From NCBI RefSeq assembly GCF_000499525.1, contig NZ_HG529244.1, positions 1 through 52,457 of the forward strand: a stretch of 52,457 bases of DNA. The letters run 5' to 3'. Numbering within the stretch: the first letter of the stretch is position 1; each line of letters opens with the position of its first letter. The position numbers were made by a program, and so were the translations under genes. Under the pieces are notes generated by a model. The model saw only the letters and a list, made by a program, of their open reading frames with translations. It had not been told where the DNA came from and did not search any database. Positions 1,438 through 33,797 of the stretch are shown one piece after another. The stretch is from Faecalimicrobium dakarense. Its GTDB lineage: Bacteria; Bacillota; Clostridia; Peptostreptococcales; Peptostreptococcaceae.

Positions 1438-1531
1438 AACGAGGAAGTATATTCTGTATGTGGGCATCTGGAATATACGGAGTTAATGATGCAACCGACT
1501 TTAGACAATTACTGTCTAAAGTCTTTTTTTT
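1438..1531 (+). promoter_or_regulatory. c-di-GMP-II riboswitch, copy 1, with intrinsic terminator
   Basis: The 3' strand carries 'GGAGTTAATGATGCAACCG', matching the conserved GAGUUAGUAGUGCAACCG end of class II c-di-GMP aptamers. Supporting pairings are GTATATTC with GAATATAC, and GCATC with GATGC within the GGGCA segment. The aptamer (about 1438-1500) runs directly into a terminator whose stem is GACTTTAGAC/GTCTAAAGTC, followed by nine T (to 1531). The first terminator bases overlap the closing aptamer helix, which is typical of an ON switch where ligand binding prevents termination. The class is known to raise expression of surface adhesins and pili in C. difficile when c-di-GMP is high. Confidence 0.9.
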
Positions 1532-1537
1532 TAAAGA

Positions 1538-1630
1538 AACGAGGAAGTATATTCTGTATGTGGGCATCTGGAATATATGGAGTTAGTGATGCAACCGGCT
1601 TTAAACAATTAATGTTTAAAGTCGGTTTTT
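1538..1630 (+). promoter_or_regulatory. c-di-GMP-II riboswitch, copy 2, with intrinsic terminator
   Basis: A near-identical second unit, arranged head-to-tail about 100 bp after copy 1. The helix here is GTATATTC with GAATATAT (one G-U pair), and the end reads 'GAGTTAGTGATGCAACCGG'. Its own terminator has a changed stem, CCGGCTTTAAAC with GTTTAAAGTCGG, followed by seven T. The changes keep pairing, so both copies look maintained. RNA polymerase must pass two ligand-gated terminators to reach the adhesin gene. Confidence 0.9.
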
Positions 1631-1665
1631 TTATTGCAAAAAATTTTAGTAAAGGAAGTGTAAGT

Positions 1666-4284: not shown

Positions 4285-4297
4285 AATAATTAAAATA

Positions 4298-4328
4298 AAA
4301 GGACTGTGAAAATGATTCACAGTCCTTT
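4298..4328. terminator. bidirectional terminator between the adhesin and the next convergent gene
   Basis: The hairpin AAAGGACTGTGAA / TTCACAGTCCTTT has a 5-nt loop. It lies 14 bp after the adhesin stop and ends the convergent gene at 4357 as well. The T-rich tail is stronger on the minus strand. Confidence 0.8.
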
Positions 4329-4356
4329 AAATATTCACTATTAATTAGGTGTATAT

Positions 4357-4755
4357 TTAAATTTTAGTTATACTTTCTAATCTATAACTAAGTAGATTTT
4401 CATATTTATCTAATTTTTCAATAAGTCTTATCATGATAGTATCACCGATATTTACAGTATCAAAAATGTCTTTATCATTTATTTTATAAGGTCTGTTTTT
4501 ATATTCTAATTCTAATAAATAAGAGTTTGGTAAATTTGAAATAAAATACTTATTTCTATGAGCATAATTACAAGGCATGCCTTTAATAAAGTATTTGTTT
4601 TTTACAGTCATATTTACATTAGTTACCCTTATTTCAGAAACTCTCAATTTTCTATAAATGTTTTTTATAAAATCTCTAATTCTAAGGAGTATAAAAAATA
4701 TTATACCTGCAATAGTAGCTAGGACTAAAAAATTATCAGATATTTCATTTCTCAT
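4357..4755 (-). CDS. hypothetical single-pass membrane protein
   Basis: A protein of 132 aa with one N-terminal membrane helix (residues ~9-25, 'FLVLATIAGIIFFILL') and a basic stretch just inside it. A soluble C-terminal half (~40-132) looks like a small beta-rich domain. I recognise no family. It stands alone, convergent with the adhesin, with about 470 bp of non-coding DNA upstream. Confidence 0.6.
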   Translation of the reverse strand: MRNEISDNFLVLATIAGIIFFILLRIRDFIKNIYRKLRVSEIRVTNVNMTVKNKYFIKGMPCNYAHRNKYFISNLPNSYLLELEYKNRPYKINDKDIFDTVNIGDTIMIRLIEKLDKYENLLSYRLESITKI

Positions 4756-4991
4756 TAATAATCTCCAATCTATTTATATATAATAGCTCAATTAAGAATA
4801 ATATTTAAGTATGTATAATGCTAAACTAGTACGCCAACTTAAGTTATTATTTACTAATACAGCATAGTTTAAAAGTAAATTTGGTACTATACCTTAAATT
4901 ATAACAGAAAATGTTAAAAAGTGCTAATTATCAAGATGTATTATGAAGCACATTTAATTATAAAGAGTAGGAAAGATAGATTAAACATTAA

Positions 4992-5019
4992 AAAAGGCAG
5001 GTTCCGCTGCCTGCCTTTT
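4992..5019. terminator. orphan strong hairpin in the 4756-5224 intergenic region
   Basis: A perfect 10-bp stem AAAAGGCAGG / CCTGCCTTTT with an 8-nt loop; AT-rich flanks make it stand out. It follows no visible gene on the plus strand (a six-U run would follow it on the minus strand). It may end an unannotated small RNA or act as an insulator before ohrR. Nothing else is recognisable in 4756-5135 apart from a possible -10 TATAAT at 4814-4819. Confidence 0.6.
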
Positions 5020-5135
5020 CGTAAGGATATAAAATTAGGATAAAATTTGAATAAAAACATTAATGAGTATACTTTAATTATATCCAGCATTCTTAGTTTT
5101 ATACATTTATTTTAAAATTGATATGAATAAAATTA

Positions 5136-5164
5136 TTGACAAAAAAAATAATAGTACATATAAT
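5136..5164 (+). promoter_or_regulatory. sigma-A promoter of ohrR
   Basis: A consensus TTGACA (5136-5141), a 17-bp spacer and TATAAT (5159-5164). Such a perfect promoter needs a repressor, which fits the OhrR-like box just downstream of the expected start site. Confidence 0.85.
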
Positions 5165-5179
5165 AAATTTAACAACTGG

Positions 5180-5194
5180 TTTAATTAAATTAAA
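5180..5194 (+). promoter_or_regulatory. OhrR-type operator upstream of ohrR
   Basis: TTTAATTAAATTAAA is a 7-1-7 inverted repeat whose core AATTAAATT is the core of the Bacillus OhrR operator (TACAATTAAATTGTA). It lies about 10 bp after the predicted transcription start, suited to autorepression. Confidence 0.6.
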
Positions 5195-5224
5195 TTTATA
5201 TAAATCATTGAATGGAGAAAATAA

Positions 5225-5656
5225 ATGAGTAAATATGATAAAATAAAATTAGAAAATCAAATATGTTTTTCATTATACGCAGCATCAAGAGAGGTTATAA
5301 AGCTATATAAGCCCTTACTTGATAAACATAACTTAACATATACACAATATGTAGCAATGCTTGTAATGTGGGAAGAAGAAAAAATTATATTTAAAGAATT
5401 AGGTAAGAGACTACACCTAGATTCTGGAACTCTTACTCCAGTAGTAAAAAAATTAGAATCTATGGAATTAATTACTAAATATAGAAATAAAGAAGATGAT
5501 AGAGTAGTTACAGTAGAAATAACTGAAAGAGGTAAATTATTAAAAGAAGATATACTTGAAGTTCCAGAAAAATTATACTGCAACTTCAATGGTGATAAAG
5601 AAAATCTTAAAAAATTAAAGGTATGCTTAGATGAATTTTTAAGAGAATTAGATTAA
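5225..5656 (+). CDS. ohrR: MarR/OhrR-family organic peroxide-sensing repressor
   Basis: A winged-helix regulator of 143 aa. The N-terminus 'LENQICFSLYAASREV' matches the OhrR signature and places the redox-sensing Cys at position 14. The wHTH spans about 50-105 ('LGKRLHLDSGTLTPVVKKLE', then the wing 'RNKEDDRVVTVEIT'). In the one-Cys OhrR family, oxidation of this Cys by organic hydroperoxides releases DNA. The gene sits 107 bp before a glutathione-peroxidase gene, and both leaders carry the same AATTAAATT palindrome core, so it most likely represses itself and that enzyme. Other MarR roles are possible, but the conserved Cys context makes OhrR the best call. Confidence 0.87.
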   Translation: MSKYDKIKLENQICFSLYAASREVIKLYKPLLDKHNLTYTQYVAMLVMWEEEKIIFKELGKRLHLDSGTLTPVVKKLESMELITKYRNKEDDRVVTVEITERGKLLKEDILEVPEKLYCNFNGDKENLKKLKVCLDEFLRELD

Positions 5657-5666
5657 TAAATAGAGT

Positions 5667-5686
5667 TAAATTCTATATAGAATTTA
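5667..5686 (+). promoter_or_regulatory. 20-bp perfect palindrome between ohrR and the peroxidase gene
   Basis: TAAATTCTATATAGAATTTA is a perfect 20-bp palindrome, 11 bp after the ohrR stop. A T-rich stretch follows, so it could be a weak terminator hairpin or a protein site. It differs from the OhrR-like boxes. Confidence 0.45.
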
Positions 5687-5714
5687 GCTTTATATTTTAA
5701 ATAAATCAATTGGA

Positions 5715-5729
5715 TTAAATTAAATTTAA
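5715..5729 (+). promoter_or_regulatory. OhrR-type operator upstream of the glutathione peroxidase gene
   Basis: TTAAATTAAATTTAA has the same AATTAAATT core and 7-1-7 symmetry as the box before ohrR, and shares a 15-nt string (ATTAAATTAAATTTA) with that region. It lies 35 bp before the start codon. Confidence 0.55.
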
Positions 5730-5763
5730 ACAAACTAATGTAAACGAGGAAGGAAGTATTAAT

Positions 5764-6240
5764 ATGAAATTTTATGATTTTAAAGCTACAAAGATGAACA
5801 AGCAAGAAATAAGTATGGAAGATTACAAGGGGAAAGTAGTTCTAGTTGTAAACACTGCAAGTAAATGTGGATTAACTCCTCAATTTAAATATCTAGAAGA
5901 GTTATATAAAGAATATAAAGACAAGGGGCTTGAGATACTAGGGTTTCCTTGTAATCAATTTGCAAAACAAGATTCAGGTAGTAATGAAGAAATACATGAA
6001 TTTTGCCAACTAAACTATGGAGTTACATTTACTATGTTTGAAAAGATTGATGTAAACGGAAAAAATGCACACCCGCTATATAAGTATTTAAAAAGCCAAG
6101 CAAAATCATTACTTAGCAAAGAAATAAAGTGGAATTTTACTAAGTTTTTAATAGACTCTAATGGAAATGTAATAAAAAGATATGCACCTACAGTATCACC
6201 ATTAAAAATTAAAAATGATATAGAAAACTTATTAAAATAA
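5764..6240 (+). CDS. glutathione peroxidase-like thiol peroxidase (Cys type)
   Basis: A thioredoxin-fold peroxidase of 158 aa. Catalytic positions are visible: Cys35 in 'NTASKCGLT' (the selenocysteine site of animal enzymes), Gln65 in 'FPCNQF', and Trp123-Asn124 in 'KWNFTKF'. Bacterial Cys-GPx enzymes reduce hydrogen and lipid hydroperoxides, usually with thioredoxin rather than glutathione as donor. Cys81 or Cys63 could act as the resolving residue. AGGAAGG precedes ATG 5764. It follows the peroxide sensor gene and shares an OhrR-like box, giving a compact peroxide response unit in what is probably an anaerobe. Confidence 0.93.
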
Positions 6241-6299
6241 ACAAACATAAGGGAAAATATAAATTTAAGGTAAAGAATATGAAGGATTAATATAAACTT

Positions 6300-6360
6300 A
6301 ACCTCTTAAAGTAGACACAAGTGAAAAATACTTGTACAATCTTAATTTAAGAGGTTATTT
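6300..6360 (+). terminator. branched terminator after the peroxidase gene
   Basis: An outer stem AACCTCTTAAA / TTTAAGAGGTT (6300-6310 with 6346-6356) encloses an inner hairpin ACAAGT / ACTTGT (6317-6322 with 6330-6335), and a T-rich tail follows. Confidence 0.7.
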
Positions 6361-6466
6361 ATTTTACTTTTATTTATAATGATTAAATAATAAAATATAT
6401 AGTATAAGATAAATATATTTGATATAAATAATATATATAAGAAAATGTAAATTAGTGGGGGACAAT

Positions 6467-7175
6467 ATGTTTTATAATATTTCAAATAAAAAGTTTATGA
6501 ACTTGTAATAGAACAAATACAAGATAGTATATTAAAGGGGAAACTAAAAAAGGAGACAAGCTACCATCAGAAAGAGAATTATCAGAGAGTATGAGTGTAA
6601 GTAGAACGTCAATAAGAGAGGCTATAAGAGTTTTAGAAACAATGGGAGTAATTGAAAGTAAGCAAGGTGAAGGTAATTTTATATGTAATAATATAGAAAA
6701 ATCACTAATAGAACCATTATCTATGGGATTTAAATTAAATGAGGGTACATGGAAAGATATATTAGAGTTAAGGGAAGTTTTAGAGTTACAAACGGTGGCA
6801 ATAGCAGCAGAAAAAGCAACAGAAGATGATTGCAATGAATTAAGAAAAATAATAGAGCAGATGCAAAATGAAAATGATAAGTTAAATTATAATAGTAAAA
6901 AGATAGTTCAACTTGACCAAAAATTTCACAATAAAATAGCATCTATAAGTAAAAATTATTTAATAGAAAGTGTATTTATGACATCATCTAGACTTTTTGA
7001 AACTTTTATAGAAGACGCAAGAGAAAAAATTATAGACAATTATAGAGATGAAAAAACATTATTTGAAAGTCATAAAATGATATATGAAGGGATAAAACAA
7101 AATAATCCTAATTTAGCATATCTAGAAATGAAAAGACACATGTCAATTATTAGAGAAAGTTATTTAATGAAATAA
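6467..7175 (+). pseudogene. GntR/FadR-family lactate regulator, two 1-nt frameshifts near the start
   Basis: Reading across the breaks gives a complete FadR-type regulator: 'VYELVIEQIQDSILKGKLKK', 'GDKLPSERELSESMSVSRTS', a wHTH, and an FCD effector domain with 'DLDQKFHNKI'-like His ligands. The frame shifts after A5 at 6488-6492 and again after A6 at 6546-6551; one added A at each repairs it. ATG 6467 has GGGGG 7-11 nt upstream. From 6591 the remaining frame codes for 194 aa but lacks most of the first recognition helices. Position next to the lactate permease operon and FadR-like palindromes in that promoter make it the lactate-responsive regulator (LldR/LctA-like role, inferred). It may be functional if the indels are base-calling errors. 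Confidence 0.8.
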
Positions 7176-7207
7176 TTTTATGGAAAATGTTAATTTTTAG
7201 ACAATCG

Positions 7208-7234
7208 TTGAAAAAATCATCACTATATTATACT
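7208..7234 (+). promoter_or_regulatory. candidate promoter of the lactate operon
   Basis: TTGAAA (7208-7213) and TATACT (7229-7234) with a short 15-bp spacer. The sub-optimal spacing leaves the exact promoter uncertain. The palindromes that follow would cover the start site. Confidence 0.4.
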
Positions 7235-7245
7235 ATTAAAACATA

Positions 7246-7260
7246 AGTGGTAATACCACT
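7246..7260 (+). promoter_or_regulatory. FadR/LldR-type operator before the lactate permease gene
   Basis: AGTGGTAATACCACT is a perfect 6-3-6 inverted repeat that fits the FadR-subfamily consensus (TNGTNNNACNA; here TGGTAATACCA). It lies about 12 bp after the predicted -10 and is the likely target of the adjacent FadR-type regulator. Confidence 0.75.
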
Positions 7261-7273
7261 GACCATCATTCAA

Positions 7274-7284
7274 GTGACCGTCAC
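7274..7284 (+). promoter_or_regulatory. second palindrome in the lactate operon leader
   Basis: GTGACCGTCAC is a perfect 5-1-5 inverted repeat, 13 bp after the FadR-like box and just ahead of the ribosome binding site. It may be a secondary regulator site or a site for another factor. Confidence 0.4.
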
Positions 7285-7309
7285 AAAATAATATTTAGGA
7301 GGAAACTTG

Positions 7310-8860
7310 ATGAACGATTATATGTTATTTTTAATAGCTATAATACCAATTATATGGTTGATTGTGTCATTGGGAGTATTGAAATTACCAGCACATAAAA
7401 CTTGTCTTTTTACAGGAATACTTACATTTATTATAGCTATGGCATTTTGGAAAATGCCATTTATAGATGCAATTACGGCATCTATTGAAGGCGTATTAGT
7501 TGCACTATGGCCTATACTTTTAGTTATAGTTGCAGCTTTATTTACTTACAACTTAGCTGTTGAGACAAAAACGATGGATACTATGAAACAAATGCTATCT
7601 AGTATAACAACAGACGAGAGAATACAAGTACTTATACTAGCTTGGGGGTTTGGAGGTTTCTTAGAGGCAGTTGCAGGATATGGTACAGCTGTTGCAATAC
7701 CAGCCAGTATACTTGCATCATTAGGATTTAATCCAATATTTGCAGCTATAATATGTCTTATAGCTAATACAGTTCCAACTGCATTTGGAGCAATAGGTAT
7801 TCCAGTAAGTACACTAGCAACAGTAACTGGACTAGATGTAATGAAATTAAGTTATATGACAGCAATTCAATTAGCACCATTCATAATATTAATACCTTTT
7901 GTATTAGTAATTCTTACTAAAAAAAGTTTTAAAGCATTAAAAGGAGTATTTTTAATAACTCTAGCATCAGGAGTAGCCTTTGCCATACCACAAATATTTA
8001 TAGCAAAATATTTAGGAGCTGAATTACCAGCACTTGTAGGAAGTTTGTGCAGTATGTTAGTCACAATACTTATGGCAAAAGCAATGAAAAAGAATGAATC
8101 TAAAACAAGAGACGATGATGCTTCTGGAAATGTAGCAATAAAATCTAGTGTAACTTTAAAGGAAGGGTTACTAGCATGGCTTCCATACATATTATTATGT
8201 ATCTTGATATTAGCAGCAAGCCCATTATTCCCATCAATAAACGAGTTTTTATCTAAATTTACAAGTGAATTTAAAATATATACAGGAGAAGGAGCAACAA
8301 CAACTAAATTTGTGTGGTTAAATACACCAGGAATGGTAATTATAGTTGCTACGTTCTTAGGAGGATTAATACAAAGAGTAAAAGTTTCTACTATGTTAGA
8401 TGTATTAATAAGAACAGTAAAACAATTATCTAAATCATTTGTAACTATAACATCAATAGTTGCAATATCAAAAATTATGTCATATAGCGGTATGACAGGA
8501 TCAATTTCATTTGGACTTAGTGCAATAACGGGGTCTTTCTATCCGATAATATCACCACTTTTAGGTTCAATTGGAACCTTTGTAACAGGGAGTGACACAT
8601 CAGCGAATATTTTATTTGGTGGGCTACAAGCTCAATCTGCAACAGCTCTAGGCATAGACCCATATTGGATAGCAGCAGCAAATACAGCAGGTGCAACAGC
8701 AGGGAAAATGATATCACCACAAAGTATAGCAATTGCAACATCAGCAACTGGATTAATAGGAAAAGAAGGAAAGATACTTAATTCAACATTAAAATTCTGC
8801 TTAGCTTATGTAATAATACTAGGCATTATGGTTTATTTAGGAAGTTATATAGGTATTTAA
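7310..8860 (+). CDS. lctP: L-lactate permease (LctP family)
   Basis: An integral membrane transporter of 516 aa with about 12-14 hydrophobic helices. Family motifs include 'GFGGFLEAVAGYGTAVAIPA', 'ANTVPTAFGAIGIPV', and near the end 'GSDTSANILFGGLQ' and 'GATAGKMISPQSIAIA'. LctP proteins import lactate (and glycolate) with protons. The ATG at 7310 is 7 nt from AGGAGG; the TTG one codon earlier is less likely. It is the first gene of the lactate operon, followed 21 bp later by the racemase gene. Confidence 0.95.
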   Translation: MNDYMLFLIAIIPIIWLIVSLGVLKLPAHKTCLFTGILTFIIAMAFWKMPFIDAITASIEGVLVALWPILLVIVAALFTYNLAVETKTMDTMKQMLSSITTDERIQVLILAWGFGGFLEAVAGYGTAVAIPASILASLGFNPIFAAIICLIANTVPTAFGAIGIPVSTLATVTGLDVMKLSYMTAIQLAPFIILIPFVLVILTKKSFKALKGVFLITLASGVAFAIPQIFIAKYLGAELPALVGSLCSMLVTILMAKAMKKNESKTRDDDASGNVAIKSSVTLKEGLLAWLPYILLCILILAASPLFPSINEFLSKFTSEFKIYTGEGATTTKFVWLNTPGMVIIVATFLGGLIQRVKVSTMLDVLIRTVKQLSKSFVTITSIVAISKIMSYSGMTGSISFGLSAITGSFYPIISPLLGSIGTFVTGSDTSANILFGGLQAQSATALGIDPYWIAAANTAGATAGKMISPQSIAIATSATGLIGKEGKILNSTLKFCLAYVIILGIMVYLGSYIGI

Positions 8861-8881
8861 TTAAATATTAGGGGGGATAAA

Positions 8882-10156
8882 ATGCCTACTTTAAAAGTAC
8901 CATACTCAAAAGAAGGAATGACTTTAAATATTCCAGACGAAAACTTTATCAAATTACTCACATCTAAGGCACACGATTATAAAGTCAGTGAAACTCAAGA
9001 AGAAATAGTTGAAAAATCATTAGACAATCCAATTGGATCACAGAAACTAGAAGAATTAGCAAAAAATAAGAAAAATATAGTAATAATAACAAGTGACCAT
9101 ACAAGACCAGTTCCTAGTAGAGTTACTATGCCAATAATTTTAAGAAGAATAAGAGAAGTAAATGAAAATGCAAATATTAAGATATTAGTTGCAACAGGAT
9201 TTCATAGAGAAAGTACAAGAGAAGAACTAATCTATAAAATGGGTGAAGAAATAGTAAATAATGAAGAGATAATAATGCATATATCAACAGATGAATCTCA
9301 AATGGTAAAAATGGGAGTATTACCATCTGGTGGAGATTTATATTTAAATAAATTAGTTAAAGAAGCAGACTTACTAATAGCAGAAGGATTTATAGAACCT
9401 CATTTCTTTGCAGGATTCTCTGGAGGAAGAAAAAGTATACTTCCAGGAATAGCATCAGCTAAAACTATAATGTATAACCATTGTAGTGATTTTATAGATA
9501 GTGAAAATGCAAGAACAGGTACACTTAACAAAAATCCTATACATGAAGATATGGTATATGCAGCTAAAGCATCAAATATAGCATTTATATTAAATGTTGT
9601 AATAGATCAAGATAAAAAAGTTATAGCATCCTTTGCTGGAGATGTAGAAAAGGCGCATAAAAAAGGATGCGAATTTGTAACTGAACTATCTAGAGTTAAA
9701 CCTTATAAAACCGATATAGTTGTCAGTACTAATGGTGGATATCCACTAGACCAAAATATATATCAATCGGTAAAAGGAATGACAGCAGCAGAGGCAACAT
9801 GTAATGAAGGTGGCGTAATAATTATGGTATCTGCATGTAATGATGGACATGGAGGTCAATCTTTCTATGACAATATAGCAAATTCTAAATCTCCAACTGA
9901 AGTACTAAAAAGAGTTAGACAGGTAAGTAGGGCACAAACAGCTCCAGACCAATGGGAATTTCAAATACTAGCCAGAATACTAGAAAAACACACAGTAATA
10001 ATGGTTACAGATAAGTGTGATAAAGATATGATAGAAAGTATGCATATGAAGCATACATCAAACTTTGATGATGCTTTAAATATAGCCTTTGATATAAAAG
10101 GCAAAGACTCAAAAGTTGTAGTTATTCCTGATGGAGTATCTGTAATTGTTAAGTAG
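8882..10156 (+). CDS. larA: nickel-pincer lactate racemase
   Basis: A protein of 424 aa. All four functional residues known from Lactiplantibacillus plantarum LarA occur at identical positions: His108 ('ATGFHRES'), His174 and Lys184 ('EPHFFAGFSGGRK'), and His200 ('TIMYNH'). The enzyme interconverts D- and L-lactate using a covalently bound nickel pincer nucleotide. The cofactor needs LarB, LarC and LarE, which are not encoded in the window. Between the permease and Etf genes, it lets the operon use both lactate isomers. Confidence 0.95.
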   Translation: MPTLKVPYSKEGMTLNIPDENFIKLLTSKAHDYKVSETQEEIVEKSLDNPIGSQKLEELAKNKKNIVIITSDHTRPVPSRVTMPIILRRIREVNENANIKILVATGFHRESTREELIYKMGEEIVNNEEIIMHISTDESQMVKMGVLPSGGDLYLNKLVKEADLLIAEGFIEPHFFAGFSGGRKSILPGIASAKTIMYNHCSDFIDSENARTGTLNKNPIHEDMVYAAKASNIAFILNVVIDQDKKVIASFAGDVEKAHKKGCEFVTELSRVKPYKTDIVVSTNGGYPLDQNIYQSVKGMTAAEATCNEGGVIIMVSACNDGHGGQSFYDNIANSKSPTEVLKRVRQVSRAQTAPDQWEFQILARILEKHTVIMVTDKCDKDMIESMHMKHTSNFDDALNIAFDIKGKDSKVVVIPDGVSVIVK

Positions 10157-10172
10157 ATAAGGGGGATAAATA

Positions 10173-10961
10173 ATGGAAATTTTAACATGTATCAAACAAG
10201 TTCCAGGAACTACTGAAGTTGAAGTTGATGAAAAAACAGGGGTACTTAAAAGAGATGGTATAGATTCTAAAATGAATCCATATGATTTATACGCATTAGA
10301 AACAGCCCTTAAAATAAAAGAGGAAAAAGATGCAACTTTAAAAGTATTGACTATGGGACCACCACAAGCAAAGCAAATAATAGAAGAAAGTTTTATGATG
10401 GGTGTTGATGAAGGGGCTATACTTAGTGATAGAAAATTCGCAGGAGCAGATGTACTTGCAACATCGTATACACTATCTCAAGGTATAAAAAAGGTAGGAA
10501 GTCCAGATTTAATAATATGTGGAAAACAAACAACTGATGGAGATACTGCTCAAGTTGGACCAGAGATAGCAGAATTTTTAAATATAGCTCATGTTACAAA
10601 TGTAACTAAAATAATCGAAGTAAAAGAAAAGAGTATAGTTGTAGAAGCTGACATGCCAAATACATTAGAAGAATGTGAGGTTAATTACCCATGTCTTATA
10701 ACTGTTGAAAAAGGAATATTCCAACCAAGATTACCTTCATTTAAATTAAAATTAGACACTAAAGATAGAGAGATACCTATTTATAGTTTAAATGATTTTG
10801 AAGACAAAGACGAAAATAACTATGGACTTAATGGATCTCCAACTCAGGTATTAAAAATTTTCCCTCCAACTTCTAATAATGAAAAAGAAGTTCTAAGAGG
10901 AAGTAGTGATGAAATAAGTGATAAGTTAGCAGATAAACTTAAGGAGTTAAAGTTAATATAG
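10173..10961 (+). CDS. etfB: electron transfer flavoprotein beta subunit (lactate dehydrogenase-associated)
   Basis: A protein of 262 aa with the EtfB opening 'MEILTCIKQVPGTTEVEVD', 'MNPYDLYALETALKIKE' and the signature 'VEADMPNTLEECEVNYPCLI'. EtfB carries the FAD that performs electron bifurcation in Bcr/Ldh-type Etf complexes. It is 16 bp after larA and 14 bp before etfA. In the A. woodii Ldh/Etf complex, the homologous LctB works with LctC and LctD to drive NAD+ reduction by lactate at the expense of reduced ferredoxin. The same role is inferred here from the gene set. Confidence 0.93.
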   Translation: MEILTCIKQVPGTTEVEVDEKTGVLKRDGIDSKMNPYDLYALETALKIKEEKDATLKVLTMGPPQAKQIIEESFMMGVDEGAILSDRKFAGADVLATSYTLSQGIKKVGSPDLIICGKQTTDGDTAQVGPEIAEFLNIAHVTNVTKIIEVKEKSIVVEADMPNTLEECEVNYPCLITVEKGIFQPRLPSFKLKLDTKDREIPIYSLNDFEDKDENNYGLNGSPTQVLKIFPPTSNNEKEVLRGSSDEISDKLADKLKELKLI

Positions 10962-10975
10962 GGGGATGATTTAAA

Positions 10976-12187
10976 GTGGCTAAAATAATAATAAATCAAG
11001 AAAAAATAGAGAATGTTGATGAAGTAATTAAACTATGTCCTTTTAATGCAATAGAGCTTATAAATGATAAAGTAGAAATAAACGCAGCTTGTAAAATGTG
11101 TAAAATGTGTGTTAAAAAAGGACCAAAAGGGGCATTTGAATTTGTTGAAAGTTTAAAGGTAGAAATAGATAAAGACAAGTGGAAAGGGATAGCTGTATAT
11201 GTAGACCACCATGAAGGAGATATACATCCTGTAACTTATGAGCTTATAGGTAAAGCTCGTGAAATGGCTGAAAAAGTAAATCATCCAGTATATTGTGTAT
11301 TCGTAGGAAAAAACATAAAAGATAAGTGTGATAAATTAATATCTTATGGTGTAGATAAAGTATTCGTATATGATGAGGAAGAATTTGAACACTTTAGAAT
11401 AGAACCATATTCTAGTGCTATTGAAGATTTTATAGAGAATGTAAAACCAACAATAATGTTAGTAGGGGGAACTACATTAGGAAGATCATTAGCACCAAGA
11501 CTTGCAGCAAGATTTAAAACAGGTCTTACAGCAGACTGTACAATATTAGATATACAAGAAAACACAGACTTAGATCAAATTAGACCTGCTTTTGGTGGAA
11601 ATATAATGGCTCATATTCATACACCAAACAATAGACCTCAATTTGCAACAGTAAGATATAAAATATTCTCTGCACCAAATGAAGTAGAAAATCCAACTGG
11701 AAAAGTTATTTTATGTAACGTCGGTAAAGAAAAATTAAACTCAAATATAAAAGTATTAAGCACTAAGCCTAAAACTAAAGAAGTTGGTCTTGAAGATGCA
11801 GAAGTTATTGTTGTTGGAAGTAGAGCTATAAAAAAACAAGAAGATATGGATATGATTTATAAATTAGCGGATGTATTAGGGGCACAAGTTGCAGGAACAA
11901 GACCACTAGTTGAATCTGGATGGATAGATGCCAAAAAACAAATAGGTCTTAGTGGTAGAACGGTAAAACCCAAACTTATAATAACTTGTGGTGTATCTGG
12001 AGCTGTTCAATTTGTGGCTGGAATGCAAGGTTCAGACTACATAGTAGCAATAAATAAAGATGAAAAAGCTCCTATATTTGATGTTTCTCACTTAGCATTA
12101 ATAGGTGATATTTATGAAATAGTTCCGAAGTTAATAGAAAAAATAGAGAAAAAACAATTAGACTTAGCATTATCAGTGGAAGAATAG
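10976..12187 (+). CDS. etfA: electron transfer flavoprotein alpha subunit with N-terminal [4Fe-4S] domain
   Basis: A protein of 403 aa from GTG 10976, preceded by GGGGGA. Residues ~1-65 form a ferredoxin-like domain with Cys21 ('CPFNAIEL') and the cluster 'CKMCKMC', able to hold one [4Fe-4S]. The remainder is canonical EtfA, with the FAD-binding signature '[10 protein letters not shown]' and '[20 protein letters not shown]'. The added iron-sulfur domain is typical of Etf partners of clostridial/acetogen lactate dehydrogenase, where it probably takes electrons from ferredoxin. Confidence 0.93.
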
Positions 12188-12198
12188 GGGGATTAGCT

Positions 12199-13590
12199 AT
12201 GTATAAAAAAATTGATAAAAATGATATAGATTTTCTTATAGATATTTGTGGGAAAGATGAAGTTTTTGTAGGGGAAGGAATAAGTGAGGACTTTTCTCAT
12301 GATGAGTTAGGTGGAGTTGAAAAATATCCAGAAGTACTTATAAATGTATATGAAACACAACAAGTATCTAAAATAATGAAATACGCATATGAAAATAATA
12401 TACCAGTAACACCTAGAGGACAAGGAACTGGATTAGTTGGAGCAGCAGTAGCAATTCATGGTGGTATTATGATTAACTTAAGCAAGATGAATAAAATATT
12501 AGAACTTGATGAGGAAAACTTAACATTAACAGTAGAACCAGGTGTATTACTTATGACTATAGGTCAATACGTTCAGGAAAAAGACTTATTTTATCCACCA
12601 GATCCAGGTGAAAAAAGTGCTACAATAGGTGGAAATATAAATACAAATGCAGGTGGAATGAGAGCAGTTAAGTACGGAGTAACTAGAGATTATATAAGAG
12701 GGTTAGAAGCAGTTCTTCCAAATGGAGAAATAATTAATATAGGTGGAAAAGTCGTTAAAAATAGTTCTGGATATAGTATAAAAGACTTAATAGTAGGTTC
12801 AGAAGGAACATTAGCAATAGTAACAAAGGCTATACTAAGACTATTACCACTTCCTAAAAAAGATATAAGTTTATTAGTTCCTTTTAAAGATTTAGCAACA
12901 GCAATAGATACAGTACCTAAAATAATAAAATCAAAATCTATACCAACAGCAATAGAGTTTATGGAAAGAGAAGTAATACTTGCTGCAGAAGAATTTTTAG
13001 GAAAGAAATTCCCAGATAATAGTTCAGATGCATATTTATTACTAAAATTTGATGGAAATAGCAAAGAAGACATAGAAAAAGAGTATGATAAAGTTGCTCA
13101 TCTATGTTTGGAAAATGGAGCATATGATGTATTTATATCTGATACACAAGAAAGAAATGAATCTATATGGTCTGCTAGAGGAGCGTTTTTAGAAGCTATA
13201 AAAGCATCAACAACAGAAATAGACGAGTGTGATGTTGTAGTTCCTAGAGATAAAGTTGCTGATTTTATAAGATATACTAATGAGTTACAAAAAGAATTAA
13301 ATGTAAGAATAAAAAGCTTTGGTCATGCAGGAGACGGAAACCTTCATGTATATACATTAAGAGATGATATGGATGATAAAACATGGGAATTAAAACTAAA
13401 AGAAAGTTTTGATTGTATGTATAAAAAAGCAAGAGAATTAAGAGGGCAAGTTTCAGGAGAACATGGAATAGGATACGCTAAAAAAGGATACTTACACGAA
13501 TCTCAAAGTGAAGCATATATGGATGTTATAAAAAATATTAAAATGGCTTTTGATCATAAAAATATATTAAATCCAGGAAAAATATATTAA
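12199..13590 (+). CDS. FAD-linked lactate dehydrogenase (GlcD/LctD family)
   Basis: A flavoenzyme of 463 aa with the N-terminal FAD_binding_4 domain ('[14 protein letters not shown]', '[17 protein letters not shown]') and a C-terminal FAD-oxidase domain carrying 'GHAGDGNLH' and '[14 protein letters not shown]'. The length and end ('NPGKIY') fit GlcD/LctD proteins, which oxidise 2-hydroxy acids. Being directly after etfBA (11-bp gap), it should pass electrons from lactate to the Etf pair instead of to quinone. The product is pyruvate. D-lactate is the usual stereoisomer for this family, which explains the racemase in the operon. A strong terminator follows. Confidence 0.93.
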
Positions 13591-22356: not shown

Positions 22357-24561
22357 TTGAAAAATAAAATTGCATTAGCAACATTAGCTATGTTACCTAT
22401 AGCAGCCACTAATGTAAGTGCATCTGGACATATAGGAGTCGTGACAACAAGTTCCTTAAATGTAAGAAGCGGAGTAGGAACTAATAATAGTGTTATTTTT
22501 ACAATAAAAAAAGGTGACCAAGTCGAAATAAAAGAAACATCAGATGGATGGTATAAGATAAGAACTAACTCAGGACAAGAGGGTTGGTCATCTTCTGAAT
22601 ATATATCAACTAGTCAAATTGCAAGCCAAGAATCTTCAACAGGAAATAAGAAAAAAACTACTGATAGAGTAAACTTAAGAAATGGAGCTGGAACTAGTTA
22701 TAGAGTTATTACCACTTTAAATAAAGGTGAAGTGTTGGAAGTTGTTTCAGAAAGCAATGGATGGGCAAAAGTTAAGCATGATGGAAGACTAGGTTACATT
22801 TCTAGTCAGTACCTAGAAAATTTAGGGTCGAGTTCTAGTAATGTATCATCAACAAAAATAGTTGATACAGATACACTAAATGTAAGAAGTGGACCAAGTA
22901 CTAGCAATGGAATAGTAGGTAAACTACATAAAGGTGAAAAAGTAGGTGTAATATCAGAAGGCAATGGATGGTCAAAAATAAAGTTTAATTCTACTGAAGC
23001 ATATACTTCTACAATGTATCTAAAAGCAGAAGGTCAGGTTACTGTACCAGAAAAACCATCAAAACCAGATACTACTCCTGAAGCTACTAAAGAAACGAAA
23101 GTAGTAAATACATCTTCATTAAATGTAAGAAATGGAGCGGGAACTAGCAATTCTAAAATAGGAAGCTTAAAATTAGGAGAAAAAGTAGAAGTAATATCAG
23201 AAAGCAATGGATGGTCAAAAATTAAGTTTAGCGGGTCTACTGGGTATGTATCAAGTCAGTATTTAAGCAAAATAAATACAAGTCCAGAAACACCAGAAAA
23301 ACCATCTCAACCAGAAACTACTAAAGAAACAAAACAAGTAAATACATCTTCATTAAATGTAAGAAGTGGAGCAGGAACTAATAATTCTAAAATAGGAAGC
23401 TTAAAATTAGGAGAAAAAATAGAAGTAATATCAGAAAGCAAAGGATGGTCTAAAATTAAGTTTAATGGATCTACTGGATATGTATCAAGTCAGTATTTAA
23501 GTAAAGTAAATACAAGTCCGGAAATACCAGAGAAACCATCTCAACCAGAAACTCCAACACAAGCAAAAGAGGTAAATACATCTTCATTAAATGTAAGAAG
23601 TGGTCCAGGAACTAACTATTCTAAAGTAGGAAGCCTTAAGCAAGGAAATAAGGTAGATGTAATATCTGAAAATAACGGATGGTCAAAAATAAAGTTTAGC
23701 GGAAAAGATGGCTTTGTATCAAGTGAATACTTAAGCCAAGAAGGTGGCTCTAAACCAGAAAATCCAGTACCTCCTGTTGTAGGTGGAGATAGTGTTCAAA
23801 TAGTAGATGGTGCTACTGTACATAATAAAGGACTAATTTATTCATTAAGTAATCACGTTGAAAAGCAGATTAATGTGGGTAAAAATGTAATGAATTCAGC
23901 TAATGCGGGTAAAAATGACTTAGAATATTTCTTAAATCCTAATAATTTTAGAAATAGTAAAAAGGGAATGATGCAGTTCTTAAGATTAGACAGCTACAAA
24001 GGTGGAATAACTGCTGGTGAGTTAAATTCATTTTTAAATGCTCAAAGGCTTTCTTCACAAGGAACTAATGTATTCTATAATCAGGGGCAAGCTTTTATAG
24101 ATGCTGCTAGAAAATATAATATAGATTTAGTATATCTTGTAGCACATTCTATGTGGGAAACGGGATATGGTTCTTCAACATTAGCACAAGGACAAGTTTT
24201 AACAAGCTATAAGGGACAAGCTTTAAGTTCACCAGTTAAAGTTTATAACTTCTTCGGTATAGGTGCATTTGATGGAACAGCTAACCTATCAGGAGCAGAA
24301 GCGGCTTATGCAAATGGATGGACAAGTGTAGAAAAAACTATTGAGGGATCTGCAAAATGGATAGCAAATAATTATTTAAAGAGCTCAAAATATGACCAAA
24401 ATACGGTTTATAAGATGAAGTTTTACTATGAAAATCCAAGACACCAGTATGCAACAGACGTAAACTGGGCAAATGGAATATCAGGTATAATGTATAGATT
24501 AATAGGAATGTATGATACAACAAGTAATTTAAAATATGAAATTCCGATTTATCAGGGATAG
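22357..24561 (+). CDS. secreted endo-beta-N-acetylglucosaminidase with six SH3b repeats
   Basis: A protein of 734 aa. A signal peptide ends near 'NVSA' (~residue 22). Six bacterial SH3 domains follow (about residues 28-465), each with the 'SLNVRSGxGT' and 'GWSKIKF' motifs and Pro/Glu linkers; the last three are almost identical, indicating recent duplication. The C-terminal ~200 residues form a GH73-type glucosaminidase with the acid Glu601 in 'HSMWETGYGSSTLAQG' and 'VYNFFGIGAFDG'. It should cleave the glycan strand of peptidoglycan (GlcNAc-MurNAc) outside the cell, with SH3b domains binding the wall. The start is TTG 22357, supported by AGGTGGAG. Possible role in cell separation or autolysis. 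Confidence 0.92.
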   Translation: MKNKIALATLAMLPIAATNVSASGHIGVVTTSSLNVRSGVGTNNSVIFTIKKGDQVEIKETSDGWYKIRTNSGQEGWSSSEYISTSQIASQESSTGNKKKTTDRVNLRNGAGTSYRVITTLNKGEVLEVVSESNGWAKVKHDGRLGYISSQYLENLGSSSSNVSSTKIVDTDTLNVRSGPSTSNGIVGKLHKGEKVGVISEGNGWSKIKFNSTEAYTSTMYLKAEGQVTVPEKPSKPDTTPEATKETKVVNTSSLNVRNGAGTSNSKIGSLKLGEKVEVISESNGWSKIKFSGSTGYVSSQYLSKINTSPETPEKPSQPETTKETKQVNTSSLNVRSGAGTNNSKIGSLKLGEKIEVISESKGWSKIKFNGSTGYVSSQYLSKVNTSPEIPEKPSQPETPTQAKEVNTSSLNVRSGPGTNYSKVGSLKQGNKVDVISENNGWSKIKFSGKDGFVSSEYLSQEGGSKPENPVPPVVGGDSVQIVDGATVHNKGLIYSLSNHVEKQINVGKNVMNSANAGKNDLEYFLNPNNFRNSKKGMMQFLRLDSYKGGITAGELNSFLNAQRLSSQGTNVFYNQGQAFIDAARKYNIDLVYLVAHSMWETGYGSSTLAQGQVLTSYKGQALSSPVKVYNFFGIGAFDGTANLSGAEAAYANGWTSVEKTIEGSAKWIANNYLKSSKYDQNTVYKMKFYYENPRHQYATDVNWANGISGIMYRLIGMYDTTSNLKYEIPIYQG

Positions 24562-30430: not shown

Positions 30431-30444
30431 TTACAAATTTGTAA
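30431..30444 (+). promoter_or_regulatory. BceR-type response regulator box
   Basis: TTACAAATTTGTAA is a perfect 14-bp palindrome and an exact match to the TNACA-N4-TGTAA consensus of BceR-like regulators. Downstream is a -10-like TATACA (30467-30472) without a good -35, as expected for an activated promoter. It lies about 90 bp before the transporter ATPase gene. Confidence 0.7.
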
Positions 30445-30530
30445 GGAAATTGAGATATAAATCGATTATACATAATTATAAAATCCTATATACTAAGTTA
30501 CTGTAAAGAGGAAAAAGGAGGTACACAAAT

Positions 30531-31208
30531 ATGTCTAAAATATTAGAAGTTAAAAACTTAAAAAAATCATATGGAACTAAAAAAAATATACAAACAGTGT
30601 TAGATGGTATAGACCTTGAAATAAACAAAGGAGAATTTGTAGGGGTAATGGGACCTTCGGGTGCTGGTAAAAGTACTCTTTTAAATATTGTTTCTACAAT
30701 AGATACAGCATCAAGTGGAGAAATAAATATAGAAGGAAAAAACATAACTAATTTAAATAACAAACAAATATCTAAGTTTAGAAGAGAAAGTTTAGGATTT
30801 ATATTCCAAGACTTTAACTTACTAGATACTTTATCTGTAAAGGATAATATTGCATTACCATTAGCCCTTGCTCGTGTTAATGCAAATGTGATAAATAAAA
30901 CTGTAAAATCAATAGCTACGACACTAGGAATTGAATCACTACTTGATAAATATCCTTATGAAATATCAGGGGGGCAAAAGCAAAGAACTGCTTGTGCTAG
31001 AGCTATAATTACAAAGCCTTCACTAATATTAGCTGATGAACCTACAGGAGCACTTGATTCTAAATCATCTACGGACCTTTTAAATGCTATGACTAGCTTA
31101 AATAAAGAACAAGATGCAACTATAATGATGGTTACTCATGATGCATTTGCTGCTAGTTATTGTAAAAGGGTTTTGTTTATAAAAGATGGATTAATATTTA
31201 AAGAATAA
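30531..31208 (+). CDS. Bce-type ABC transporter ATPase
   Basis: A protein of 225 aa with Walker A 'GPSGAGKSTLLN', Q-loop 'FIFQDFNLLDTL', signature 'EISGGQKQR', Walker B 'LILADEPTGALD' and H-loop 'MMVTHD'. This is the MacB/LolD/BceA subgroup. BceAB pumps free cell-wall targets from antimicrobial peptides such as bacitracin. AAGGAGG precedes the ATG. It is followed by the large permease gene and preceded by a BceR-like box; the matching two-component genes are not in the window. Confidence 0.93.
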   Translation: MSKILEVKNLKKSYGTKKNIQTVLDGIDLEINKGEFVGVMGPSGAGKSTLLNIVSTIDTASSGEINIEGKNITNLNNKQISKFRRESLGFIFQDFNLLDTLSVKDNIALPLALARVNANVINKTVKSIATTLGIESLLDKYPYEISGGQKQRTACARAIITKPSLILADEPTGALDSKSSTDLLNAMTSLNKEQDATIMMVTHDAFAASYCKRVLFIKDGLIFKE

Positions 31209-31280
31209 TAAGACATGAGTCTAGAAAAGAATTCTTTAAAGAAATTTTAGACGTTTTATCATTGATAGGTGGTGGTGATA

Positions 31281-33218
31281 ATGGTCTTATTTAATATAGC
31301 TAAAAAAAATATAGAGAAAAATTTAAAAGGGTATTTCTTATATTTTTTCTCTATAGTATTTACTGTATGTATATACTACTCATTTAAAAACTTACAGTAT
31401 AACCCGGCTATAGATAGTGCATTAGCAGGAAGTAGTAAAGCTTCTACTGCTTTTAATTCTGCTTCAGTTGTAATTGCTTTATTCTCAGTACTATTTATAT
31501 GGTACTCAAATAGTTTCTTTATAAAGAAAAGGAAAAAAGAAATTGGGTTATATGCTCTTTTAGGAATAGAAAATAGAGAAATCGGGATTCTTTTATTCTT
31601 TGAAACATTAATAATAGGAGCAGTTTCACTAATAATAGGAATAGTGTTTGGAATTATATTTTCAAAACTTATGTTAGGAATACTTTTAAAGATTATCGGA
31701 TTAAATTTAAGTATACCTTTTTACGTATCATTTAAAGGAATATTTGATACACTTGTACTTTTCATATTTGTATTTTTAGTGATTGCTTATCAGAGCAATA
31801 GAATAATTTACAAGTTTAAGCTTATAGATTTATTTAAAGCTTCAAGTGTATCGGAAAAAGCTAAAAAGGGATCAAAGTTATTGGCTATAACATCAATAGT
31901 TCTTATAGGGTTTGGATACGTAAATTATATTTCAGTTTTAAAAGGAATGGATATAGTAGTGTCAGCTATGATTACCTTATTTACAGTTGTATTAGGTACA
32001 TTTTTATTCTTTAGCTCATTTATGTATTTTGTAATTAGAAAGAAGAAAAATCAAGAATCAAACTATTACAAAGGACTAAATATGATATCTACATCTCAAT
32101 TACTTTATAGAATAAAAAGTAATGCGAAGATGTTATCTATAATATCAATATTAAGTGCAACTACTTTAACCGCTATAGGTATATCTATGACAACATACTT
32201 TATGAGTTCTGAAAACGTAGATAGCATTGCTCCATTTTCTTATACTTTAAAAATTGATAATAAAGATTATATAAAAGAATTTGAAGAAACTTTAAGTAAT
32301 TCAAGTAATCATAAATTACTTGATAAATCTAAATTTACTTATATAACATTACCAGAAGTAAAAAATAATTCAAATTCTGATTATCTTGAAGAATATGAAA
32401 TAATTTCTTTATCAAACTTAAATCAATTATTAAAGATAAAAGGTGTTAAAGAGGCAAGTAATATAAAAGATAGTGAATTTATTCATGTATATCCTAAATA
32501 TAACGACTATCGAGCTAAGTCAGTTGTTGATATAGATCATAATGGGACTACATTTAAATTAAATCTTAACTCTAGTATAGATGAAAAATTATATAATACA
32601 GAAATACCTCAAAATACTATAGTTGTATCTGATAGTACTTTCGAAAGTTTAAAATCAAATAATAAAGTAAATAACTACTATTTATATGATATATCTAATG
32701 AAAAAGATAGTGAATATTTTAATAATAAAGTTTTAAAATTAACTGAAAAATATGCAGTTGGAGAATATGAGAAGCCTTCTAATAGCTTAGTAAATTCTTA
32801 TTACTCAACATTTAAAGATATATTCACAACTTCTGGAATAATGGTATTTATAGGAGTCTTTGTGGGGTTAGTATTTTTAGTTTGTACTGGTAGTGTTATA
32901 TTTTTCAAGCTACTATCTGAGGCTCAAGATGAAGCACCTAGATATAATGTATTAGATAAAATTGGGGTAGATACTAGTGATGTAAAGTCATCTGTTTATA
33001 ACCAAGTTGGATTTAATTTCTTCGTACCATTATTAATAGGAAGTATTCATAGTATTGTAGCAAATTATGTTGTATGTAAAATGTTTGGTCAAAATTTAAT
33101 ATTTGTAATGGCTTGGACACTTATACCTTACTCAATAATCTATGTAGTTTACTACTTGCTTACATCTAAGTTTTATTTTGATATAGTTACTAAAAAAATT
33201 AAGGAGAATTTAATATGA
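31281..33218 (+). CDS. Bce-type ABC transporter permease
   Basis: A protein of 645 aa with about ten membrane helices and one large extracytoplasmic domain between about residues 300 and 515. This is the hallmark of BceB permeases, which also signal to a BceS-type histidine kinase. 'KKRKKEIGLYALLGIENREI' after helix 2 is the FtsX-like coupling segment. ATG 31281 follows AGGTGGTG; GTG codons just before it are less likely. It overlaps the next gene by 4 nt (ATGA), so they are translationally coupled. Confidence 0.9.
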   Translation: MVLFNIAKKNIEKNLKGYFLYFFSIVFTVCIYYSFKNLQYNPAIDSALAGSSKASTAFNSASVVIALFSVLFIWYSNSFFIKKRKKEIGLYALLGIENREIGILLFFETLIIGAVSLIIGIVFGIIFSKLMLGILLKIIGLNLSIPFYVSFKGIFDTLVLFIFVFLVIAYQSNRIIYKFKLIDLFKASSVSEKAKKGSKLLAITSIVLIGFGYVNYISVLKGMDIVVSAMITLFTVVLGTFLFFSSFMYFVIRKKKNQESNYYKGLNMISTSQLLYRIKSNAKMLSIISILSATTLTAIGISMTTYFMSSENVDSIAPFSYTLKIDNKDYIKEFEETLSNSSNHKLLDKSKFTYITLPEVKNNSNSDYLEEYEIISLSNLNQLLKIKGVKEASNIKDSEFIHVYPKYNDYRAKSVVDIDHNGTTFKLNLNSSIDEKLYNTEIPQNTIVVSDSTFESLKSNNKVNNYYLYDISNEKDSEYFNNKVLKLTEKYAVGEYEKPSNSLVNSYYSTFKDIFTTSGIMVFIGVFVGLVFLVCTGSVIFFKLLSEAQDEAPRYNVLDKIGVDTSDVKSSVYNQVGFNFFVPLLIGSIHSIVANYVVCKMFGQNLIFVMAWTLIPYSIIYVVYYLLTSKFYFDIVTKKIKENLI

Positions 33219-33715
33219 AAAAAATAATATCTATTGCAATAGCAATTTTAATAATACTAGGGGGAGCATTTTTCGCTTTAAGAACAGTGTTATTCCCTGT
33301 TAAATATACATCTGATATAAAGAGTATTTCTAGCGAATACAAGATAGACCCGTATATATTAGCTTCACTTGCACACTTTGAATCAAGATTTGATGATAAA
33401 AAATATGAGAAAAATTCAAATAATGGGATTTTAAGATTTAGTGATGAATCTTCAACTAAATTAGCAAAAGAGTTAAATATTAATAATTTTAAACCTGAGG
33501 ATTTAGTTGACCCCAAAACTAGTTTAAAACTAGGAGCATATTATATATCTAAGTTTAGTAATGAAGGTTTAAGCAAAGTAGTTCAAGAGTGGAATGTTAA
33601 AAATGGAGAGGAAGCTAACTTTGATAGAAGAGACTATGCAAAGCAGTACTATCTTCCTAAAATAGAAAAGAATATAAAAATATTTAAATTTTTATATCCA
33701 GATTTAAAAAATTAA
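33215..33715 (+). CDS. membrane-anchored lytic transglycosylase (SLT domain)
   Basis: A protein of 166 aa with an N-terminal signal anchor (residues ~4-23) and a goose-lysozyme-like SLT domain. The catalytic Glu is Glu56 in 'LASLAHFESRFD'; the usual 'GLMQ' stretch is reduced to 'NGILRF', followed by 'DPKTSLKLGAYYISKF'. SLT enzymes cleave peptidoglycan glycans to 1,6-anhydro ends. The start overlaps the permease stop by 4 nt, so the wall hydrolase belongs to the Bce-like operon. That is an unusual pairing, suggesting a wall-remodelling answer to antimicrobial stress. Activity is inferred. Confidence 0.85.
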   Translation: MKKIISIAIAILIILGGAFFALRTVLFPVKYTSDIKSISSEYKIDPYILASLAHFESRFDDKKYEKNSNNGILRFSDESSTKLAKELNINNFKPEDLVDPKTSLKLGAYYISKFSNEGLSKVVQEWNVKNGEEANFDRRDYAKQYYLPKIEKNIKIFKFLYPDLKN

Positions 33716-33764: not shown

Positions 33765-33797
33765 AAAAGGTATTGGCTAAATAGTCAATACCTTTTT
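33765..33797. terminator. bidirectional terminator between the transglycosylase and brnQ genes
   Basis: AAAAGGTATTG / CAATACCTTTTT with extra pairing inside the loop. Confidence 0.82.

Follow-up and report, generated by a model that had tools for sequence, protein, structure and literature searches.

A transglycosylase-like gene beside a Bce-type transporter operon in Faecalimicrobium dakarense and its relatives

BceAB-type transporters are believed to detach antibiotics from undecaprenyl pyrophosphate or lipid II (PMC7828314, PMC9020739, PMC10314905), and how they protect these lipid targets is still debated (PMC7828314). Some resistance transporters of this type have no two-component system of their own, as exemplified by DerAB, which is under ApsR (PMC10858260). 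The Staphylococcus aureus GraR operator is ACAAATTTGT, inverted repeats are given as the binding sites of the GraR orthologues BceR and VirR (PMC3128592), and AnnTTACnAnnnnGTnAG is common to the ApsR and PsdR promoters of L. paracasei (PMC10858260). In FtsEX and YbbAP-TesA, the permease is of the type VII ATP-binding cassette (ABC) kind and holds a hydrolase outside the cytoplasm or controls it (PMC12646458). Here we describe an operon in a 52,457-nucleotide (nt) stretch of Faecalimicrobium dakarense (RefSeq assembly GCF_000499525.1, contig NZ_HG529244.1; the window) in which a bceA-bceB pair is followed by a gene for a transglycosylase-like protein with an SLT domain.

This third gene is very probably a dedicated component of a Bce-type peptide-antibiotic detoxification module. 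Judged from the genome sequences, it stays beside BceAB in all three clades into which its relatives fall, and it shares the operator of BceA, either through the operon or through a copy of its own. Taken as a whole, the explanation that we favour is a dedicated accessory component with binding as its family-wide property, to which we assign a probability of about one half.

Linkage and descent of the SLT gene

An earlier note on this DNA had drawn attention to the gene trio, and the search for the same trio in other clostridia was set beforehand as a test that could refute the proposal. The trio proved to be conserved, with BceB adjoining the SLT gene at 14 of 14 loci (at the G058 locus as a remnant). 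BceB was found within 1.5 kb at none of the 87 ordinary SLT loci that were fetched, which encode 84 distinct proteins and leave most lower-scoring ones outside the sample; one of the 87 has an ABC ATPase 27% identical to BceA. Of the 297 genomes of the order, 63 have a BceB match at E 1e-60 or better, and most BceAB pairs therefore lack an SLT partner. Among genomes with a BceB more than 60% identical to that of the window, the SLT gene adjoins it in 8/8, in broken form in G012.

The relatives were collected at increasing taxonomic depth. Queried with the third protein, 71 family genomes yielded clear relatives in nine, that of the window excluded, with identities in the best piece of 65-82% in eight (G029, G055, G027, G057, G025, G026, G058, G012) and 34% in G060. 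Some SLT match was present in 70 of the 71 genomes, nearly all of the ordinary type; ordinary SLTs occur in nearly all family genomes and are mostly 22-34% identical to the third protein. The order-level profile search (297 genomes, threshold 116 bits, nine of the 14 loci being profile seeds) recovered 14 loci at 282.7-116.7 bits in 13 genomes of two families, followed by a second G012 gene fragment at 98.9 bits and by ordinary SLTs from 93.2 bits downwards. In the second family of the order, 2/16 genomes have members, G158 with two loci and G149. Similarity alone led to clade I and G060, and the profile to G158a. G062, which scores no better than ordinary SLTs against the window protein, was put into the profile because BceB adjoins it; G158b and G149 resemble this seed, and the three are not independent finds.

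Searches of the class (291 genomes) and phylum (398 genomes) returned no further member in an even sampling that may miss rare ones; other proteins reached at most 100 and 110 bits, and those fetched carry the ordinary SLT motifs. Spread on mobile elements is unsupported, the third protein having no match in 72,556 plasmid and 50,697 phage records, collections from which records near the window genome were possibly left out.

In a tree with 30 of the 84 sampled ordinary SLTs, the 12 intact Bce-linked SLTs form one clade (support 0.996), within which clades II and III group together (0.89). The pairing of the two clade II members, G060 and G158a, has a support of 0.17 in the SLT tree and 0.99 in the BceB tree, and without the outgroup G158a joins clade III (0.88). 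SLT and BceB distances are correlated (Mantel r 0.86, p 1e-4; clade I alone 0.83, p 0.003). The ratio of nonsynonymous to synonymous substitutions (dN/dS) is 0.16-0.32 for the SLT gene in five intact pairs and 0.13-0.24 for BceB in the five intact pairs and the window-G012 pair.

The SLT-like protein and what it may do

The third gene (33215-33715, + strand) encodes 166 residues, of which 36-117 match the Pfam SLT profile (PF01464; 9.2e-10, 38.6 bits, cut-off 21.3), the domain of lytic transglycosylase family 1; the match stops at profile position 82 of 117. A single strongly hydrophobic segment spans residues 4-22, and there is no cysteine within the first 35 residues, hence no lipobox. From hydrophobicity we predict one N-terminal membrane helix with the domain outside.

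The active site departs from that of ordinary SLTs, 84/84 distinct proteins of which carry Glu-Ser, GLMQ (in one, then Met) and a third motif that we take to be the one named YN-x-G. The earlier note had read the window protein as having lost GLMQ and kept Glu56, and both points are borne out: Glu56 is present and the GLMQ position reads GILR. YN-x-G is also missing, with EWN at its likely place. Across the 12 intact members, the catalytic Glu is kept in ten and replaced by Thr in G060 and by Gln in G158a, both in open frames; GLMQ is kept in the three members of clade III and altered in the other nine; and YN-x-G is missing throughout, with an invariant tryptophan at the likely place (EWN in 6/7 clade I members). 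Ser57 and Phe59 are invariant and Tyr146 is found in 11/12. Entries of solved MltE and Slt structures label Glu-to-Gln mutants as inactive in their titles, so the G158a protein is expected to be inactive.

Because two intact members are without the Glu and active-site motifs are altered in all 12, cleavage is not the function of the whole family, and the shared property is more likely to be binding than cutting. The earlier suggestion of a wall-cleaving partner thus does not hold family-wide; the window protein, which keeps Glu56, may still cleave. We propose that BceAB meets antibiotic bound to undecaprenyl pyrophosphate or lipid II, and that a BceRS pair would then induce BceAB together with the SLT-like protein. 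The SLT-fold domain would be positioned beside the extracellular domain of BceB, would bind the glycan of nascent strands or of lipid-linked precursors, and may aid release of the target or shield the freed target. Co-controlled and probably anchored next to BceB, the protein would encounter the lipid-linked intermediates that the transporter meets. Binding would be common to the family; cleavage may persist in the Glu-keeping clades I and III and would be dispensable in at least one clade. This specific arrangement, with the SLT domain beside BceB gripping glycan or lipid-linked precursors, is tentative, and we rate it slightly below an even chance.

The strongest competing explanation is an active lytic transglycosylase, with clades I and III cleaving antibiotic-faulted nascent or uncross-linked glycan and the Glu-less clade II as a derived exception. 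The ten members with Glu, the conserved Ser57, Phe59 and Tyr146 and the GLMQ of clade III are consistent with it, as is the effect of S. aureus GraSR on the expression of autolysin genes including sceD and isaA (PMC3128592). The loss of GLMQ in nine members and of YN-x-G in all 12, set against 84 of 84 ordinary SLTs with both, and the truncated Pfam match argue the other way, and we consider this explanation possible but rather unlikely.

A bolder version of our proposal, which we consider rather unlikely, holds that BceB grips the SLT domain, which the ATP-driven movement of BceAB would then apply mechanically to nascent glycan or to lipid II with bound antibiotic. That BceB and the SLT-like protein form a physical complex is a guess by analogy, based here on gene adjacency and co-divergence. 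If true, FtsEX with its hydrolase and YbbAP-TesA would be joined by a third type VII ABC machine that has an extracytoplasmic enzyme to itself, one placed inside an antibiotic-resistance module and, in one lineage, evolving towards a non-cutting clamp.

Gene order, kinases and operator

BceA, BceB and the SLT gene are contiguous in eight genomes (with a broken SLT frame in G012), and their outer neighbours vary between genera. Clade I, to which the window belongs, has the order A-B-SLT without BceRS. In clade II, the SLT gene of G060 is convergent to a response regulator-BceB-BceA run, and G158a reads kinase, SLT, BceB, BceA, BceB. Clade III has SLT-B-A-R-S in G062 and R-S-A-B-SLT in G158b and G149. 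Two loci have more than one permease gene: at the kinase-SLT-BceB-BceA-BceB locus of G158 (L138, 3496-10074), one ATPase gene is flanked by two permease genes, and at L063 of G026 (2820-8862) a tandem BceAB-BceAB-SLT arrangement carries an exact bipartite operator (described below) ahead of each BceAB.

The window has no adjacent BceRS genes. The check on their location, which the earlier note had called for, gave five BceS-like kinase matches in the window genome, all on other contigs (C45, C121, C167, C92, which is interrupted, and C116, which is partial). No BceS-like kinase was found near any of the eight clade I loci, that of G025 being on a contig of only 9.2 kb; the closest one sharing a contig with its locus is in G026, at a distance of about 79 kb. 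At 5/5 loci of clades II and III, the SLT gene has a BceS-like kinase gene at 0.3-5.3 kb. With BceRS-type genes close by in these two clades, the locus is better read as a Bce module with an extra component than as a swap of regulator for hydrolase. As Bce transporters without their own two-component system are known (DerAB), the window operon can be viewed as an unlinked Bce operon.

The kinase positions also bear on a third explanation, in which the protein tunes the signal from BceAB to BceS in the manner of YsaD or GraX, with the SLT fold serving only as a sensor of the state of the wall. There are precedents for small proteins that are encoded in such operons and modulate signalling (YsaD, PMC7438565; GraX, PMC3128592), and the nearby kinases of clades II and III would suit it. 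All eight clade I loci are without such a kinase, so the partner that is kept is BceAB and not the kinase, and we regard this explanation as doubtful.

Upstream of the window operon, the BceR/GraR-type operator TTACAAATTTGTAA (30431-30444, + strand), which contains ACAAATTTGT, is a perfect palindrome, as had been reported from the sequence, and comparison of bipartite sites places a second promoter element, ATCGAT, exactly 16 nt past it (30461-30466, +). The box was dropped as evidence by itself, its chance rate being about equal: the window has one match against 0.17 expected, 16 of 100 shuffles have at least one, and the genome has 19 sites against 15 for the reversed control. The box is strong evidence only through its position, its conservation and the ATCRAT element 16 nt downstream. 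It starts 87-100 nt ahead of the assumed bceA start in 9/9 clade I promoters from eight genomes (a TGACA half occurs in one promoter) and 104-123 nt ahead of the SLT gene itself in G060, G062, G158b and G149. With the exception of the G058 remnant, where one was looked for and none found, each locus carries a box ahead of BceA, ahead of the SLT gene or ahead of each of them; the boxes of G012 and G158a are variants.

ATCRAT follows the box at exactly 16 nt in clades I and III and is missing from clade II; in the SLT promoters of G158b and G149 the second element reads TTCGAT. The bipartite site has 13 exact copies across the 13 genomes, against none for the reversed control in all 13 and about 0.6 expected from base composition, and each of the 13 immediately precedes bceA, except in G062, where it precedes the SLT gene. 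Eleven of these 13 matches are the sites from which the pattern was derived; the two independent ones (G057:C21 and G058:C1:2853847) both precede further BceAB pairs, and the absence of exact sites elsewhere is independent as well. At two mismatches the pattern is no commoner than its reversed control. A variant palindrome, TTTCA-N4-TGAAA, has the same 16-nt spacing to ATCAAT at G000:C168:489-524 and G012:C83:33708-33743, in G000 upstream of another BceAB pair (BceA of L074); it looks like a second operator specificity on the same promoter plan.

That the SLT gene is an unrelated neighbour caught in the operon, with no functional tie, is very improbable: some copies decay and linkage alone could be inherited, but the trio stays together in several gene orders while its outer neighbours differ between genera, and in four loci the SLT gene has an operator of its own.

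In the window, bceA (30531-31208, +) encodes an ATPase of 225 residues and bceB an FtsX-like permease (ATG at 31281 to 33218, +; the open reading frame opens with GTG at 31269), both identified by open reading frame and profile match. The earlier assignment to a Bce-type transporter pair is confirmed by these profiles and by solved structures, BceB aligning over nearly its whole length with PsdB (1.1e-60) and BceB (1e-57). BceA ends about 29 residues short of all aligned orthologues at a frame stop within 31200-31280, and solved BceA aligns with most of the stretch that is lost. The window BceB is longer than those of its relatives by a few residues, which accounts for the 4-nt overlap (ATGA) with the SLT gene. 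The overlap had been noted before; it is present here and not conserved, seven relatives having gaps of 10-12 nt, which rules out 4-nt translational coupling as a conserved feature. Given the short BceA and this overlap, the window copy may be damaged or mis-assembled, and both frame errors in the draft and genuine decay are possible; other Bce genes are split in the same draft of 256 contigs (BceB of C92 and C45, kinase of C92). A terminator-like hairpin with a T run follows the SLT gene (33765-33796, +); a terminator scan of the region found none between bceB and the SLT gene, and the only other such site, 30659-30678, lies inside bceA. Together with the tight spacing, this is compatible with co-transcription.

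Elsewhere in the window, about 6 kb upstream, 22357-24561 encodes a second wall enzyme with six SH3_3 stretches and a glucosaminidase domain, which is probably an ordinary autolysin. The protein at 1486-4284 has collagen-binding and SpaA-type domains and is probably a surface protein. A lactate permease, a lactate racemase, two ETF-domain proteins and an FAD-linked oxidase stand in a row at 7307-13590, resembling a lactate-use operon.

Standing of the proposal and comparison with known systems

Several observations weigh against a dedicated component whose shared property is binding. The Glu of 10/12 intact members, together with the GLMQ of clade III, fits an enzyme, and binding of glycan or BceB by the SLT-like protein is putative. 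The AlphaFold model of the protein is poor (predicted local distance difference test 52.5, from a three-sequence alignment); a fold search with this low-confidence model had lytic transglycosylases as top matches, the best with E 0.009 and none below 0.001. Copies decay, with a broken frame in G012, a remnant without the box in G058 and a 30-residue fragment in G053, so the SLT component is dispensable. Its co-divergence with BceB may stem partly from species descent, and dN/dS of the SLT gene in the window-G012 pair, 0.46 over 98 codons, may indicate that constraint is relaxed in this genus. Clade II (G060, G158a) is without an exact bipartite promoter, and in G158a the variant box lies about 240 nt upstream, between the kinase gene and the SLT gene.

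The Bce-type transporter is of a known kind, and the dedicated transglycosylase-like third component is probably a new addition: a literature search found no description of a transglycosylase gene in a BceAB operon in the excerpts covered, which leave one mention of 'transglycosylase' in PMC7828314 uncovered. A conserved, probably extracellular partner from a glycan-acting family, with the catalytic residue in some members and not in others, amounts to a natural experiment, in which a change of one residue could tell binding from cutting. The partner hints at what the Bce module handles outside the membrane, and it would bring antibiotic resistance into the association of type VII ABC transporters with wall-active partners.

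The closest described systems are BceRSAB, PsdRSAB and GraXRS-VraFG. The window operon resembles them in nearly the full length of BceB, in BceA except for its tail and in the GraR/BceR-type operator upstream, and two clades also have BceRS-type genes close by. It differs in the added transglycosylase-like gene and, in clade I, in having no BceRS of its own. VraDEH is reportedly a three-component Bce transporter with a small extra operon gene. The ordinary SLT of the same genome (C146, whose adjoining gene is presumably coaE) shares the domain family and a similar N-terminal hydrophobic segment and is 28% identical to the third protein; unlike it, C146 keeps Glu, GLMQ and YN-x-G and is not near BceAB.

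YsaDCB likewise has a small extra gene within a transporter operon; YsaD, however, is a secreted peptide, whereas the protein described here has an SLT domain and a predicted membrane helix (PMC7438565). In FtsEX-CwlO, as in the proposed module, a type VII ABC transporter is paired with a hydrolase-type partner outside the cytoplasm (PMC7828314), and tesA adjoins ybbAP as the SLT gene adjoins bceAB (PMC12646458). In contrast to both, the partner here has an SLT domain, stands under a Bce-type operator and is without the catalytic Glu in one clade, and its complex with the permease would be putative.

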